Part shown: in pieces, positions 45,845 through 52,230 of the stretch
Layout of the letters: every line of letters begins with the position of its first letter
How positions within the stretch are numbered: position 1 is the stretch's first letter
NCBI RefSeq assembly: GCF_000377765.1
Contig: NZ_KB898662.1
Coordinates: forward strand, 1 to 64,000
Source: Gracilibacillus lacisalsi DSM 19029
GTDB taxonomy: Bacteria > Bacillota > Bacilli > Bacillales > Amphibacillaceae
Direction: 5' to 3'
DNA length: 64,000 nucleotides
The notes under the pieces: generated by a model
The model's database searches: none
Seen by the model: the letters and a program-made list of their open reading frames with translations, nothing else
What the model was told of the DNA's origin: nothing
Made by a program: the position numbers and the translations under genes

Positions 45845-45861
45845 TTTGGGAGGGATTGATA

Positions 45862-47892
45862 GTGAAGAAAAAGTTCACCTTAACTTTGCTTACCTTTGTT
45901 ATGCTGCTTAGTATTACTTCCATCACTACATTCGCAGAAGAAACCCCCACCGAAGAAATCAATATCCAGACATATGCCGAAAACATGCAGCCGGGTTGGA
46001 ATCTTGGTAATACGTATGACGCTGTTGGTGAAGATGAAACAGCTTGGGGAAACCCTTATGTTACGAAAGATTTAATTGAAAAAATTGCAGATGAAGGCTT
46101 TAAAAGCATTCGCATTCCGATCACATTTGATCAAAGAATGGCTGAAAGTGGCGACTATCAAATTGATGAAGATTTTTTAGATCGAGTTGATCAGACGGTA
46201 CAATGGTCGTTAGAAGAAGATTTATATGTGATGATTAATATTCATCATGATTCATGGATTTGGATAGAATCTGGAATGCAAGAAAACCATGATCAAACGG
46301 TAGAACGTTTTAATGCTATTTGGACACAGCTAGCAGATCGTTTTAAAGATGAATCACCGAAATTAATGTTTGAAAGCATCAATGAACCTAGATTTTGGGG
46401 AACCGAGGAAGAGAGCCAGCAATACTTAGACGAATTGAATACTCACTTCTATCAAATTGTTAGAGAATCTGGTGGAAATAATGATATTCGACCATTAGTG
46501 TTACCTACTCTTGATACCGGATCAGAGCCAGAAAAAATTACTGCTTTATATGATTTTATCGACAACTTAGAAGATCCCAATATTATTGCAACTGTTCATT
46601 ATTACGGTTTTTGGCCATTTAGTGTCAATATTGCTGGATATACACGCTTTGAACAAGATACAAAAGAGGATATCCACGCTACATTTGATCGAGTGCATGA
46701 TACCTTTACAGCGAACGGGATTCCAACAGTGATTGGTGAATATGGACTGCTTGGCTTTGACGTAGATACAGGTGTTATCCAACAAGGCGAAAAACTGAAA
46801 TTCTTTGAATATATGCTTCACTATGCTCAGGAGAAAGACCTTGTTCACATGCTTTGGGATAATGGCCAACACTTAAAACGCGATACATTGGAATGGTCAG
46901 ATCAACAATTTTTTAATATAGTACAAACAAGCTGGCATACTAGATCTGCAGTTCCCAACGATAACTTCATTTACTTAAAAGACTCAGAGGAAATCACAGA
47001 TAGATCCATTACGTTTGAACTGCATGACAATGATTTTGCAGAAGTTTATCTGGCTGATCAACAGTTAGAAGAAGGGATCGATTATCAAATCGAGGGAAAT
47101 ACGATCACTTTTTCTAAAGAATTATTGAGCTCCCTTGTAACGGAAAATGACTTTGGTACGGTTGCTACTTTAACTGTAACATTTAGTGGTGGTGTTGATT
47201 GGGATATTGATGTACGGGTCTATCAAACACCTGTATTGGAAGGAACAGAAGGAACAACATCCGAATTTCTGATTCCTACAAACTTTAATGGGGATCAATT
47301 AGCGACAATGGAAGCATATTATCAAGATGGATCTTTTGCAGGCCCACAGAATTGGACGGCATTTAAGGAATTTGGTTATGCTTTTGCCCCGGATTATCAA
47401 GAAGGATTTATCGAATTAAAGGATACCTTTTTTAATGAAGTAGAGCATGGAGAAGTTGATCTCACCTTCCATTTCTGGAGTGGTGAAACAGTAGACTATA
47501 CGGTTGTCAAAAATGGGGAAAGTGTTACTTCTTTAGTAGAGGAAGAACCGGAGAAGGAGGAACCTGTCGAGGAGGATCCAGTTAAAGAAGAGACAGGGGA
47601 TGACCGTACACAAGAAGAAGCAAGTGAAGTAGGGGAAACACCTGTTGACGAAGAAAACGAATCAACCAATCCAACAGACGATTCCCATAAAAAAGAAACG
47701 TCGACTGATTCTGATGAGGATGATACCAAATCAGAAGATACAGCTGATCCATATTTAGCATCAAACCATGAGGAAAACAATCGATTACCTGATACAGCTA
47801 CTGCTCAATTTAATTATATGGGGATTGGGTTAGTCTTGGTTTTAATCGGGATTGGCAGTTTTACTTGGTATCGTAAGATAAAAGGTGAATAA
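45862..47892 (+). CDS. Wall-anchored GH5 endoglucanase/xyloglucanase with CBM_X2 and CBM46
   Basis: The 676-residue enzyme has a signal peptide (about 1-26) and a GH5 domain (about 40-355). The acid/base is Glu175 (SINEPRF) and the nucleophile Glu293 (IGEYGLLG). A CBM_X2 Ig-like module (about 368-462) and a CBM46 module (about 470-565, 'FLIPTNFNGDQLATM') follow. This order matches Bacillus halodurans Cel5B, which acts on beta-glucan and xyloglucan. A Glu-rich linker and LPDTA at about 642 anchor it to the wall. I chose GTG at 45862 since GGGAGGG is seven bases upstream. A TTG six bases earlier is too close. Confidence 0.93.
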   Translation: MKKKFTLTLLTFVMLLSITSITTFAEETPTEEINIQTYAENMQPGWNLGNTYDAVGEDETAWGNPYVTKDLIEKIADEGFKSIRIPITFDQRMAESGDYQIDEDFLDRVDQTVQWSLEEDLYVMINIHHDSWIWIESGMQENHDQTVERFNAIWTQLADRFKDESPKLMFESINEPRFWGTEEESQQYLDELNTHFYQIVRESGGNNDIRPLVLPTLDTGSEPEKITALYDFIDNLEDPNIIATVHYYGFWPFSVNIAGYTRFEQDTKEDIHATFDRVHDTFTANGIPTVIGEYGLLGFDVDTGVIQQGEKLKFFEYMLHYAQEKDLVHMLWDNGQHLKRDTLEWSDQQFFNIVQTSWHTRSAVPNDNFIYLKDSEEITDRSITFELHDNDFAEVYLADQQLEEGIDYQIEGNTITFSKELLSSLVTENDFGTVATLTVTFSGGVDWDIDVRVYQTPVLEGTEGTTSEFLIPTNFNGDQLATMEAYYQDGSFAGPQNWTAFKEFGYAFAPDYQEGFIELKDTFFNEVEHGEVDLTFHFWSGETVDYTVVKNGESVTSLVEEEPEKEEPVEEDPVKEETGDDRTQEEASEVGETPVDEENESTNPTDDSHKKETSTDSDEDDTKSEDTADPYLASNHEENNRLPDTATAQFNYMGIGLVLVLIGIGSFTWYRKIKGE

Positions 47893-48170: not shown

Positions 48171-49721
48171 CTATTTTGCATTCCGTTTTAAAACAATAAA
48201 TAAAACAGCAATCATCACAATAAATAATAATGTAACTGTTAACGAGATCATTACTTCACCGGTGAAACCGAATATTAAATAGCCGATTCCTGCTGCTAAA
48301 GCACTGAGAAACGCATATGGCAATTGAGTAATAACATGATCCATGTGATTTGCCCCAGCACCGGTAGAGGATAGGATTGACGTATCAGATATTGGAGAAC
48401 AGTGATCCCCAAAAACAGATCCTGCCAGCACCGCAGCCATTGCTGGAAGTACTAAATCAACATCATACTCGATAGCAATTTGTGCAGCAATCGGAAGCAT
48501 AATACCAAACGTTCCCCATGATGTTCCAGTTGCCAATGCCATAAAACCAGCAATCACAAACAATAACAGTGCTAAAAAGTTCACGTTAAACGAATATTGC
48601 TGTACTAATTCAGCCAGATAACCACCAGTATCAATAGTCTCAATGATAGCTCCAATCATCCAGGCAAGAATTAAAATATAAATCGCTGGCATCATTGACA
48701 TGGAACCATCTTTTACCACTTTCACCACTGATAACTTAGTGCCATTTAAGAAAATATACATGATCAGTCCAACGGCAACAGCACATAATCCACCGACAAA
48801 AAGGGATAGGTTTACATTCGTGTTTTCAAACATGGTTAAGATCGTTGCATTTCCTTCTGTCTCCAGATACCCTGTATAAAGCATCGTCGCAACGGTAGCA
48901 ACTACCAATACAATAATTGGGATTAATAAATGCATGATTTTTCCGTTTTCATTTACTACCGCGTTCTCTCTCATGTCCGCTGACATCGTTTGCTTTGCAG
49001 GGTCTACTACATGACCTGTTTCCACTGCTCTTTTCTCATGAGTTTTCATTGCTCCAATATCAATCCGAAAAATAGCGACTAAAAATACTAACAACATTGC
49101 TGCAAAAGCATACATATTTAACGGGATCATTTTAACAAATGCTTCTAACGGCTGGAATTCCGTCACTTCAGCTGCAACAAAAATGGAACCTAGCGTCCCA
49201 ATAATATAAGCGCCCCAACTTGAAATTGGTGTAATTACCGTGATCGGAGCAGAAGTAGAATCAATAAAATAGGCTAATTTTGCTCGGGATACCTTATATC
49301 GATCTGTTAATGGTCTCGAGACTTGTCCCACAGCTAAACTGTTAAAATAATCATCAATAAATATGACAACACCAAGAAAAGATGGGACGAGTTGAGCACC
49401 ACGTCTTGTTTTTACTTTTTGAATAGCCCATTCTCCGAAAGCTTTACTGCCACCGGAAGCTGTCATCACAACTGTCATAATCCCTAATAACAACAAAAAG
49501 ACAAGTAAATAAATACTTCCGAGATTCCAACCATCTTCTGTGTAGAAGATATCTCGAAATACGAGCCAGATTTGCTGAAGACTGTCTACGATATTAAATT
49601 CGTGAATAAGCAAAGCCCCAACAACAATTCCGGTTCCTAAAGACAACAATACTCGTCTTGTCGTTAATACTAGTATCAGCATCAAAACCGCCGGAATTAA
49701 AGAATATATTGTACCTTCCAT
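48171..49721 (-). CDS. NhaC-family Na+/H+ antiporter
   Basis: The 516-residue protein has about eleven or twelve membrane helices. NhaC features include 'FLGVVIFIDDYFNSLAVG' near residue 125, 'FIDSTSAPITVITPISSWGA' near 158 and 'ATGTSWGTFGIMLPIAAQIA' near 395, with the 'GDHCSPISDTSILSSTGAG' stretch near 440. It exchanges sodium for protons, or acts on a related amine or carboxylate pair. GGAGG lies eight bases before the ATG at 49721, and the 11-codon upstream extension is not supported. It fits a salt-exposed lifestyle. Confidence 0.9.
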   Translation of the reverse strand: MEGTIYSLIPAVLMLILVLTTRRVLLSLGTGIVVGALLIHEFNIVDSLQQIWLVFRDIFYTEDGWNLGSIYLLVFLLLLGIMTVVMTASGGSKAFGEWAIQKVKTRRGAQLVPSFLGVVIFIDDYFNSLAVGQVSRPLTDRYKVSRAKLAYFIDSTSAPITVITPISSWGAYIIGTLGSIFVAAEVTEFQPLEAFVKMIPLNMYAFAAMLLVFLVAIFRIDIGAMKTHEKRAVETGHVVDPAKQTMSADMRENAVVNENGKIMHLLIPIIVLVVATVATMLYTGYLETEGNATILTMFENTNVNLSLFVGGLCAVAVGLIMYIFLNGTKLSVVKVVKDGSMSMMPAIYILILAWMIGAIIETIDTGGYLAELVQQYSFNVNFLALLLFVIAGFMALATGTSWGTFGIMLPIAAQIAIEYDVDLVLPAMAAVLAGSVFGDHCSPISDTSILSSTGAGANHMDHVITQLPYAFLSALAAGIGYLIFGFTGEVMISLTVTLLFIVMIAVLFIVLKRNAK

Positions 49722-49819
49722 AAACATAACCTCCACTATTACTATCCTGTCCATAAAGTAAGACTTCTATCAGTGGGAGTTTTGGCCCCTCACTGATGAT
49801 TAGCGAAACTAATCAAGGT

Positions 49820-49888
49820 GTTAGCGTCCATATCCGTCCCTAGCTTCATTGATAACCTTGGAATGGATTGGACAGCACCGTGATAAAA
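49820..49888 (+). repeat. Family 4 element
   Basis: GTTAGCGTCCATATCCG at the left and TTGGACAGCACCGTGATAAA at the right resemble 24010-24088 in order and strand. Here it lies downstream of two minus-strand units rather than upstream of a plus-strand gene. Confidence 0.4.
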
Positions 49889-49893
49889 CACAG

Positions 49894-49927
49894 AAAAAAC
49901 AGTAATAGAACAACGTCCATTACTGTT
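49894..49927 (-). terminator. Rho-independent terminator of the glycosidase/ABC operon
   Basis: Arms AACAGTAAT (49898-49906) and ATTACTGTT (49919-49927) are followed on the minus strand by six T. It is the first good terminator after the glycosidase stop at 50254, so the 51-bp array between them would be part of the transcript. Confidence 0.75.
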
Positions 49928-50047
49928 CCACTTCGAAATATATACTAAAATAGTGTACCAATTTTCAAAGCATCTGTCACTTATTTTTTTAAGAATGAAA
50001 GAAACGGAAATGCTGAATATATTTGGATGAATCAAGGTTTGTTTTTG

Positions 50048-50243
50048 TTACGGACAGTTTTGCTTGCTTTTTCTTGAATTTGTCTATTAGATGCTTTCTT
50101 ATGGACACTTTTTTCGTTTTTGATCTAGCTTTGTCCACAAGATCTATTCTTACGGACACTCCTGACGTATTTCCCTTACTGGTGTCCCTTAGATTCAGTC
50201 TTACGGACAATTTCATCTGTTTTTCTGTTGTTTTGTCCGTAAG
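50048..50243. repeat. Alternating inverted-motif array, exact 51-bp period (TTACGGACA type)
   Basis: Eight copies of TTACGGACA or its complement TGTCCGTAA, some degenerate, alternate in orientation. The GGAC/GTCC centres start at 50052, 50082, 50103, 50133, 50154, 50184, 50205 and 50235. The spacings are exactly 30, 21, 30, 21, 30, 21 and 30 bp. The last pair can form a perfect 11-bp stem (CTTACGGACAA and TTGTCCGTAAG). It starts about 10 bp after the stop codon of the glycosidase gene. The gap 49722-50253 contains this array, a terminator and a family 4 element. Confidence 0.9.
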
Positions 50244-50253
50244 TTGATCTAGT

Positions 50254-52230
50254 TTAACTATATATATCTTTTAATCCCTCTTGTTCGAGTGCCCATCCTT
50301 TTGGGAAACCTGTTTTCGTTGCGAGCATTGCCACTGCAATCAACAAAGCTCCATTTCCAGGAAGATAGACCGTTAATGCATCATGTTGGTAGTTATGTCC
50401 ATTGATAGAGTGAGTATTTTTGACTTGATCCATTAACAAAAAGTCGACAGCTAGATCTAGCTCCCCAAGCCTTGCAGCTGTCATGGCACACATTGGAAAA
50501 TCCCATCCCCATGCTGTTTCCCATTGCCATTCTTCTTTAACTTTATGCAATGTATCAAGCATTACCTTTTTATCTATTAATTCTCCCGGCAATACGCCAA
50601 AAGCCGCTACCATTGATGGATGATCATGATTTTTTTCAGTGAAAGTATTTTCACAATCTCGATGTGCTAAATAGACCCCATCTTTTACACGTGGCTTTGC
50701 TATTTTTTTTCTGACTGCTTTCCATTTTTCCGGTATTTCTTTACCTATTCGCTCACACCATTCGATCGCAATACCTAAACCAAAATGCCAATATTCTAGT
50801 TCATATGGTGGATTAATGCTATCTTCCATCCGATGGTTCTCCTGTGCTGGTATAAGTCCAGGTCCTAGTTGATAGACATCATGCTCTTCATCATAGGTAG
50901 CGAATGATGCCATAAAATCAGCCGAAGCAAAAACTACTTCACTAAATGTCTCTAACATCTTTTCATCATTATTTGCTTGATAGCATAATTCAGCTAAATA
51001 TATTGGATGTGGTTGCTGCCAGATTAAACCCGGAGCAATCGGTGATGGCGTCTGCTCTCCTTCTATACCAACCATTTTCGGCCAACGAGCACCTTGAAAC
51101 CCTTGAGATTCTGCTAGCTGATAAGCTTTAGGCAAAATATTGAGATACCAGTTCATACTTTTTTTCAAAATAGCTGGCCTTCCCCATAACGGAAAATGTG
51201 CAGCATGCCAATAATGCATTTCTAAATGAAACTTCCCAAACCAACTGTTATACATGTAACCTGTTTCTTGTGGTGGAACCGAACCACCACTATGAACAGC
51301 TAAAAGATATTGTGATAAAATCACCCGCCGTTCCAGTTCATCTGCACGAGGATCCTTACTTCCTTCAAAAGACAGGAAACCTCCGTTAGACCAGAATTCC
51401 TTCCAATGCTCACGCGATTCTGTAAACACCTGATCTGTTGTCTTTTCTATCAGCTTATTTTCAGAAAAAGACAGTGTAAATGTCAATGTTTCAGCATCTG
51501 ATGTTAATACCCATCTATTTGCTTCTGTTTGCCGAACTTCTCCAGAGTTCCAGTTCCATCCTACTGTATAAGACGTATCATCCATTATGCGTTTCAACTT
51601 AATCGAGTTATCAGATTGGTTAAATACCTCTGTTTGATGTCCACTTTCTTCCCAATTTAATGCAAACGCATCTTCCCATTTTCGATCGGTGATATTGGGA
51701 CTGGGAAAAGCTAATTGTATTGCGATTTGACCTTTTTTTAACAAGGATGAGGCTACGGTTACTCCGATGATATCCTCTTCCGGATCACAAGCTGTCTTGA
51801 CCTTAACCTTCTCGCCATTTAAGATGAAATCACTCTCAATCACACCTGACCATAAATCATGCCTTTGCTTAACAGGTTTGACCTCCCCAGCATCACACAA
51901 AAACCCAATCTGTCCAAGTTGTAAACGATGAGGATTTTGTCTTAACCAATGATAGGCTTCTTCTTTGTTTTCTGGATAAAGTGGATATGGCGCCCCTTGG
52001 TAATATTGCATGTTCACATCATCTAATGTGTAACGATTTTTTCCACCAGTAGCATGCCAACCCCAATTTGATTGTGTACTTAATGGTGTCACATATTGTT
52101 CAGGGAATGTTTGCAACCCCGTAAAGTCAACAGACATTCCGAATTCACCATTTCCAATGGATAATGGCGCCCTAGGTTCTATCTTAGTCACGACAGGAGC
52201 ATGTTTATCGACGATCTTTTTTCTATTCAT
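50254..52230 (-). CDS. (alpha/alpha)6-type intracellular glycoside hydrolase, GH95-like
   Basis: The 658-residue soluble protein has an N-terminal beta-rich domain ('PRAPLSIGNGEFGMSVDFTG') and a helical barrel domain. 'WFGKFHLEMHYWHAAHFPLW' near residues 330-350 resembles the conserved core of GH95 and related barrel glycosidases, and several Glu, Asp and His clusters follow. I could not match it to a characterised enzyme, so the linkage it cuts is unknown. It overlaps the GH43 gene by 8 bp, with AGGAGGG before its ATG. Lack of a signal peptide and the adjacent importer suggest it acts on imported oligosaccharides. Confidence 0.7.
   Translation of the reverse strand: MNRKKIVDKHAPVVTKIEPRAPLSIGNGEFGMSVDFTGLQTFPEQYVTPLSTQSNWGWHATGGKNRYTLDDVNMQYYQGAPYPLYPENKEEAYHWLRQNPHRLQLGQIGFLCDAGEVKPVKQRHDLWSGVIESDFILNGEKVKVKTACDPEEDIIGVTVASSLLKKGQIAIQLAFPSPNITDRKWEDAFALNWEESGHQTEVFNQSDNSIKLKRIMDDTSYTVGWNWNSGEVRQTEANRWVLTSDAETLTFTLSFSENKLIEKTTDQVFTESREHWKEFWSNGGFLSFEGSKDPRADELERRVILSQYLLAVHSGGSVPPQETGYMYNSWFGKFHLEMHYWHAAHFPLWGRPAILKKSMNWYLNILPKAYQLAESQGFQGARWPKMVGIEGEQTPSPIAPGLIWQQPHPIYLAELCYQANNDEKMLETFSEVVFASADFMASFATYDEEHDVYQLGPGLIPAQENHRMEDSINPPYELEYWHFGLGIAIEWCERIGKEIPEKWKAVRKKIAKPRVKDGVYLAHRDCENTFTEKNHDHPSMVAAFGVLPGELIDKKVMLDTLHKVKEEWQWETAWGWDFPMCAMTAARLGELDLAVDFLLMDQVKNTHSINGHNYQHDALTVYLPGNGALLIAVAMLATKTGFPKGWALEQEGLKDIYS

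Follow-up and report, generated by a model that had tools for sequence, protein, structure and literature searches.

What is the array of short motifs that lies directly behind a gene of Gracilibacillus lacisalsi DSM 19029, how widely does it occur, and what may read it? We analysed a stretch of 64,000 nucleotides from this genome (the window), in which an earlier note had described eight motifs of strictly alternating orientation, 30 and 21 bp apart. The array occupies 50048-50242 and consists of four units of the form F(TTACGGACA)-N24-R(TGTCCGTAA), joined by N9, with a period of exactly 51 bp, and its eight degenerate 9-mers alternate F and R. The F sites start at 50048, 50099, 50150 and 50201, and the R sites at 50081, 50132, 50183 and 50234. 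The start-to-start distances of the whole 9-mers are 33 and 18 bp, whereas the GGACA/TGTCC core pentamers lie 30 and 21 bp apart; both describe the same geometry, and the spacing given before is correct for the pentamers. All eight sites are present, but only if degeneracy is allowed: three of the four F sites are exact and the fourth has 1 mismatch, while R4 is exact, R2 and R3 have 2 mismatches each and R1 has 3. The features of the array and its surroundings are as follows.

50048..50242, minus strand: whole array, four F-N24-R units with N9 joints
50048..50056, plus strand: half-site F1, TTACGGACA
50057..50080, no strand: linker 1 of unit 1, 24 bp
50081..50089, plus strand: half-site R1, TGTCTATTA; 3 mismatches to TGTCCGTAA, core TGTC..T.A retained (by eye)
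50090..50098, no strand: joint 1, 9 bp
50099..50107, plus strand: half-site F2, TTATGGACA
50108..50131, no strand: linker 2, 24 bp
50132..50140, plus strand: half-site R2, TGTCCACAA; differs at core position 7
50141..50149, no strand: joint 2, 9 bp
50150..50158, plus strand: half-site F3, TTACGGACA
50159..50182, no strand: linker 3, 24 bp
50183..50191, plus strand: half-site R3, TGTCCCTTA
50192..50200, no strand: joint 3, 9 bp
50201..50209, plus strand: half-site F4, TTACGGACA
50210..50233, no strand: linker 4, 24 bp
50234..50242, plus strand: half-site R4, TGTCCGTAA
50254..52254, minus strand: upstream gene, 666 aa, with its stop codon 11 bp ahead of the array
49894..49968, minus strand: region separating the array from the antiporter gene, with a stretch resembling a promoter (49940-49968, by eye) and a hairpin with a U-run (49894-49925)
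48171..49754, minus strand: downstream gene, Na+/H+ antiporter family (PF03553)

The array is real, and its sites with their 51-bp period exceed what chance would give in the window. An eight-site template has 8 mismatches at the array, while places in the window average 53.5 (sd 3.75) and the best unrelated one has 38, a comparison that is partly circular because the template was derived from the array itself. The pattern TNANNGACA-N24-TGTCNNTNA matches three times in the window, at units 1, 3 and 4, where 0.01 matches are expected, and at 46 places in the source genome versus 0 for a control pattern.

The minus strand of the array is its purine/A-rich strand and is also the sense strand of the upstream gene. 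This gene had been taken for a glycosidase, an assignment that was not confirmed: the 666-aa protein matches nothing in Pfam, NCBIfam or the PDB sequences. Its C-terminal part is matched in 14 of 17 genomes of the genus, some of the matches being paralogues. A terminator of this gene had been placed past the array, and a hairpin with a U-run is indeed present there. However, the hairpin may belong to the leader of the antiporter gene rather than end the upstream transcript, because a promoter-like stretch precedes it and it is visible at the equivalent place in five sister genomes (G001, G011, G012, G013 and G016). The leader (49894-49968) resembles an attenuator-type leader and has no Rfam match. 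Behind orthologues of the 666-aa gene, the array is present in the source genome (G000), G009 and G002, and an apparent decayed remnant was seen by eye in G016; in G011, G012 and G013 the array is absent and the leader hairpin is retained. Elsewhere in the window, at 45856-47892, a 678-aa ORF resembles a secreted, cell-wall-anchored cellulase-type enzyme (by eye).

The array is one member of a dispersed family. Searched for exactly, R-N9-F occurs at 3 places in the source genome; it also matches in six of 150 relatives, every one of them a member of this genus. Arrays were located with sites and a covariance model (R-N9-F-N24-R-N9-F, 25 rows; genus scan at E 0.001) built from the window motif. 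The model matches in 10 of 17 Gracilibacillus genomes, with 103 matches in the source genome, overlapping and counted on both strands, and a scan of the order with stricter filters gave matches in 24 of the 348 genomes sampled and in 13 of their 126 genera, Gracilibacillus among them. For the F-N24-R pattern, the ten genus genomes with arrays yield 426 places and the other seven 3, and its control has 3 matches in all seventeen. Within 49 stretches of the source genome that were examined, there are sixteen arrays of at least four sites, including that of the window. The same architecture exists outside Gracilibacillus, in Neobacillus and Bacillus sp. FJAT-29790. Nine of 21 stretches held a periodic array (four from Gracilibacillus, of which L099 is weak, four from Neobacillus and one from Bacillus sp. 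FJAT-29790); the remaining 12 held a single inverted repeat without an array and were dropped. In a stretch from Atopococcus tabaci (L083), the inverted repeat likewise occurs singly, as a perfect terminator-like hairpin, with no array (by eye).

Four patterns searched in phage contigs gave one stretch in total (L262). Two array queries had no match in plasmid records, where sequence similarity is a weak detector of such arrays. Clustering near the origin was considered and dropped: matches in G002 leave a gap at about 0.92-2.9 Mb and G011 and G015 show no clear agreement, the origins themselves not having been located. Literature listings from open-licence full texts showed no description of the element, which is weak evidence for novelty, and the matching part of one paper (PMC5687920) is an oligonucleotide list.

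The spacing is a property of the family. Among neighbouring sites in 78 arrays of the genus, chained by distances of 15-21 and 30-36 bp only, 242 of 254 R-to-F distances are 18 bp; of 298 F-to-R distances, 254 are 33 bp and 34 are 32 bp. The 32-bp distances result in a 50-bp period in some genus arrays, and the period is mostly 50 bp in L159, L168, L199 and L200. In other genera (33 arrays at 30 loci; distances of 16-21 and 30-37 bp admitted, overlapping stretches L228 and L231 left out), R to F is 18 bp in 158/165 pairs and F to R is 34 bp in 156/176, and the period is usually 52 bp. The half-site pair around N9 is constant wherever examined, and the linker length is lineage-specific. The concern raised before, that other genomic copies might not keep the spacing, was not borne out.

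The basic element is F-linker-R, because the arrays mostly have F first and R last (50 of the 78 genus arrays, with the reverse in 6) and solitary units occur. Eleven isolated-looking places, hand-picked among the F-N24-R matches listed, comprise six solitary F-N24-R units (L307, L308, L309, L314, L315 and L317), four short arrays and one doubtful match (L312). In the gap between purH and purD, the source genome has six near-identical units; G009 has one degenerate unit, seen by eye and unlisted by the script, with R off at two core positions, and G002, G012 and G013 have no GTCC unit. This locus, together with the solitary units, suggests growth of arrays from a single F-N24-R unit.

Orthologous places in several species, recognised by comparing flanks with the arrays removed, hold arrays that differ in unit number. 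In 25 orthologous pairs, sites detected in both copies are 96.9% identical in the core (906 aligned), against 64.9% in the linkers (1674), and the flanks are 79 and 83% identical. With classes taken from one copy and counted in both directions, identity is 1929/2064 (93.5%) in the core and 2484/3850 (64.5%) in the linkers, and 741/1032 variable motif bases and 803/1170 N9 bases are identical; these are non-independent pairs with sequences in common, gap cells are omitted, and the motifs may anchor the alignment. Core identity exceeds linker identity in 49 of 49 directions that contain both classes, and is 95.9% in a 17-pair subset versus 93.5% in all 25 pairs. Since the core exceeds the linkers by this much between orthologues, the half-sites are, judged from these alignments, maintained, by selection or by something of equal effect.

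The spacers had been described as not conserved. Their sequence does drift, but they have a common layout of A-tracts, and one of their strands is rich in purines. Among 226 different 24-bp linkers of the genus, A peaks near positions 2, 12 and 20. In the 25-bp linkers of other genera (30 arrays, three of which are one locus), the peaks are at 2, 13 and 23-24, and a period of 10.75-11 bp is the strongest. Across 58 whole arrays, the 10.25-bp component of the A-tract signal is 0.382 versus 0.237 in linker shuffles, and a further peak lies at 8.5 bp, which is a harmonic of the 51-bp repeat (0.276 versus 0.184). These patterns indicate that the A-tracts lie roughly one helical turn apart and that the linker is probably bent. 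The spacing of A within the genus linkers, 9.8 and then 8.2 bp with no clean 10.5, counts against phased bending.

We therefore come to the reading that we prefer and regard as about an even bet: an extragenic, BIME-like DNA array of separate origin, bound by a putative sequence-specific protein. The unit would be a pair of inverted half-sites of 9-11 bp (TNANNGACA ... TGTCNNTNA) around a 23-25 bp linker with helically phased A-tracts, repeated from one to more than 20 times at 50-52 bp. This distance equals five helical turns and would place every unit on the same face of the helix. We infer the bending, the protein, its cooperativity and a benefit as follows. A putative protein, most simply a dimer, would grip both half-sites of a unit, bend the linker and bind neighbouring units cooperatively. 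The resulting nucleoprotein track behind genes would be comparable to gyrase or IHF on BIMEs, and might absorb supercoils, insulate neighbouring genes or organise the chromosome. Among the three possibilities of the earlier note (a protein-binding array, a 3' UTR RNA structure and a self-copying repeat), the first appears best supported on sequence grounds. Two results count against a protein track: no reader protein was found, and presence is patchy, with 7 of 17 genus genomes lacking a model match, two of them only 73% and 83% complete. From this patchiness it follows that the role would be dispensable or lineage-bound.

Selfish spread would explain part of the same evidence. Here, a MITE-like inverted repeat of 42-46 bp would be inserted behind genes or terminators by a putative enzyme and tandemly expanded, with no use to the host. 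The dispersed and patchy copies fit this, as do the purH-purD gap, occupied in two genomes and empty of GTCC units in three, and the solitary units, which adjoin terminator-like hairpins (by eye). Furthermore, the arms match between arrays and vary independently within genus arrays, which fits founders that were perfect inverted repeats. We nevertheless consider this explanation unlikely, since the difference in identity between half-sites and linkers points to upkeep after insertion, and since no match for a Y1/RAYT transposase (PF01797) was found in the array-bearing G000, G002 and G011. PF01797 matches occur in seven other array-bearing genomes, and most (15) are in the array-free G006. Because the domain is absent from three array-bearing genomes and commonest in an array-free one, RAYT is not a needed partner of the arrays, and a REP/RAYT system is unsupported by this distribution among the genomes of the genus.

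The position of the arrays bears on whether they act as DNA or as RNA. Positions were counted for 73 of the 78 genus arrays (L130, L134 and L194, which have no F-R pair, are of undefined strand, and two others have a missing neighbour), with ORFs of at least 80 codons as approximate neighbour genes and as raw counts without a random-intergenic control. Relative to the purine-rich strand, 61 of the 73 lie behind a gene, 24 of the 61 in convergent arrangement; eight are antisense to both neighbours and four lie in divergent gaps. That the purine-rich strand follows the gene strand counts against a purely DNA-level reading, as a DNA element has no need of it. On the purine-rich strand, 22 of 75 arrays have the end of a terminator-like site in the 100 bp ahead of them, and in 10 of 75 such a site begins within 60 bp past the array (raw counts, no control). 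Because such a sense site stands just before the array in these 22 cases, some arrays lie, by sequence, beyond the likely transcript end. The neighbours resemble ordinary metabolic and cell-wall genes (names read from the sequences by eye). One pair of orthologous arrays, L063 (G000:C6:136200-136394) and L186 (G001 C63), lies between genes resembling essB and essC of a type VII secretion locus (by eye).

A 3' UTR RNA element, in which hairpins in series, with purine-rich single-stranded stretches as linkers, would protect the upstream mRNA or bind an RNA-binding protein, is in our view improbable. It agrees with the sense orientation of the purine-rich strand in 61/73 arrays, with the place of the window array directly past a stop codon, and with fold energies of z -4.4 and -4.6 for its two strands. 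The chain of hairpins proposed before is weakly supported as the conserved feature: both strands fold better than shuffles, but they do so necessarily, since the array is palindromic. However, no compensation was found within genus arrays for either hairpin pairing. The short hairpin (R-N9-F) has 89.1% paired cells versus 89.0% with arms reshuffled within arrays (p 0.43), and the long hairpin (F-N24-R) 89.5 versus 89.7% (p 0.93); one pair is changed on both sides, which 492 of 500 shuffles equal, and mismatches are frequent at variable positions. Dealing the arms among all genus arrays lowers both pairings, and 0 of 1000 shuffles reach the observed values. Outside the genus, the arms co-vary between arrays, with an arm match within the array of 0.865 versus 0.762 when shuffled between arrays (30 arrays), and the within-array signal is borderline: p is 0.05-0.084 for the short pairing, and 0.06, or 0.008 for Watson-Crick pairs, for the long one. 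This long-pairing signal counts against a DNA-only reading and would also be given by a hairpin. The arms match as per-array sets, which may reflect a founder with matching arms, one dimeric reader or a hairpin. Also against an RNA element are the sense terminator-like sites before 22 of 75 arrays and the phasing of the A-tracts, for which there is no clear RNA-level reason. In Rfam, nothing scored above the gathering score in window positions 49500-50800, and across 10 array loci no match exceeded the cut-off on the arrays, the one match above it being a TPP riboswitch outside the array and four others being sub-threshold. Two known binding motifs were compared and rejected. Against a CsrA sponge (ANGGA), 52 of 323 F sites have A in place of G5, and the complementary R is equally conserved; the DnaA box (TTATCCACA) differs from the TTATGGACA variant at 2 of 9 positions.

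Two intergenic gaps, that between purH and purD and that behind the 666-aa gene, were surveyed in sister species and contain arrays of other types, with periods of 20, 21, 41 and 51 bp. That these too are whole helical turns speaks for the protein-bound reading. TTGCAA recurs every 20 bp in G010, GTCGCAA every 21 in G014 and TTCGCAA every 20 in G008; CTCGRGATAGA recurs every 20-21 bp in G006, a TCCCGTGAA-type array every 21 in G001 and a TGACGCCCA/TGGCCGTCA array every 51 bp in G007. The purH-purD spot has GTCC units in two species and TTGCAA, GTCGCAA, TTCGCAA and TGACGCCCA arrays in four others. Loci of unrelated short-motif arrays at the two spots are L271, L276, L292, L295, L297 and L298. 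The TTGCAA type is itself dispersed, with 68 overlapping places in G010, 15 in G000, 12 in G009 and six in three others, and none for the control. In the source genome, TTGCAA arrays with a 20-bp period and one purine-rich strand were seen at C1:412867, C1:488161, C2:421286, C12:12883 and C20:68485. Thirteen loci of these wider types were considered; seven lie behind a gene by choice, and so do five of the six others (the TTGCAA loci L301-L306). We tentatively propose, with less confidence than would make it an even chance, a class in Bacillaceae in which lineage-specific words recur at whole helical turns (20-21, 41 and 50-52 bp) behind genes or terminators. In such a class the position would be conserved and the word variable, each word being read by a putative lineage-specific DNA-binding protein.

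Such arrays could also be by-products of tandem duplication, with short motifs behind genes multiplying by slippage at whole-turn periods and the motif having no function. The unit number differs between orthologues, tandem units are near-identical in L062, and the same spots hold arrays of unrelated motifs, all of which would be expected. This is very improbable, because slippage does not keep 9-mers while 24-mers drift, nor keep 18 bp from R to F across genera. Finally, a repeat coding for 17-residue peptides on the minus strand can be dismissed almost entirely: the 51-bp period corresponds to 17 codons, no stop interrupts the minus frame in the window array, and this frame has the fewest stops in 51 frame-keeping arrays (86/3337 codons versus 401/3384 and 107/3339), but the frame changes in 24 of 75 arrays of known strand, 23 of the 51 are open in the noted frame versus 16 in a second one, periods of 50 and 52 bp occur and the 75-aa ORF has no Pfam match, so that, as the earlier note had supposed, the array is not generally coding, the open frame not being kept across copies.

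The reading of the arrays as a protein-bound DNA track would have practical consequences. If a protein reads the tracks, the purpose of intergenic arrays would become testable, as half-sites, linker bending and unit number can be altered separately, and the genus offers a ready comparison of 10 genomes with arrays and 7 without. Annotation might also mistake such arrays for small repeat proteins or for CRISPRs.

Among known systems, BIMEs and REPs are the closest. According to an excerpt of PMC2817692, those of enterobacteria and Xanthomonas are regularly spaced, alternating, extragenic and clustered, with variable unit numbers, and binding of gyrase, IHF and Pol I to BIMEs is reported; an excerpt of PMC3733652 describes REPs as palindromes of 20-40 bp tied to RAYT transposases. 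The arrays found here share the alternating orientation with regular spacing and the extragenic location, mostly behind genes and rarely in divergent gaps (4/73). They differ in their half-site of 9-11 bp, their period of 50-52 bp, their linkers with phased A-tracts and the lack of a Y1 transposase match in the source genome. The alternating half-site is no palindrome; R-N9-F, taken as a 27-bp piece, would be one, but it then repeats directly. No REP tag of the GTAG/CGTC type was seen by eye in the array consensus. In REPINs, the unit is a pair of inverted repeats dispersed outside genes. The present arrays also have an inverted pair as their unit and are dispersed outside genes, but they have no RAYT association, their linker sequence is not conserved and they grow long.

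STAR elements of Staphylococcus, as excerpted in PMC3532100, are GC-rich 14-bp direct repeats with a recurring sequence of at least 40 bp between them. Like the arrays here, they are interspersed, intergenic arrays of Firmicutes that are locus-specific, expand and contract, and have, in the same excerpt, no established function (PMC3532100); the STAR signature T[G/A/T]TGTTG[G/T]GGCCC[C/A] was not found by eye in the array consensus or the four units. R-N9-F resembles a 27-bp repeat with a 24-bp spacer, as in the false-CRISPR elements excerpted from PMC5294841. Rfam CRISPR-DR41 matches the array below threshold (19.3 bits versus a cut-off of 36), and no CRISPR family was found up to E 1 in 10 array loci. 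Unlike CRISPR spacers, those of the arrays are purine-rich with a common A-tract layout. The CIRCE operator of HrcA has arm and spacer lengths as in R-N9-F; the arrays differ from it in sequence, are tandem, and lie behind genes and outside promoters. Most simply, the array is a DNA track for a putative protein and would work like a BIME, as an analogue rather than a demonstrated member of the REP/BIME family; should a protein indeed read such tracks, Gram-positive bacteria would have an equivalent of the BIME system with a geometry of its own.
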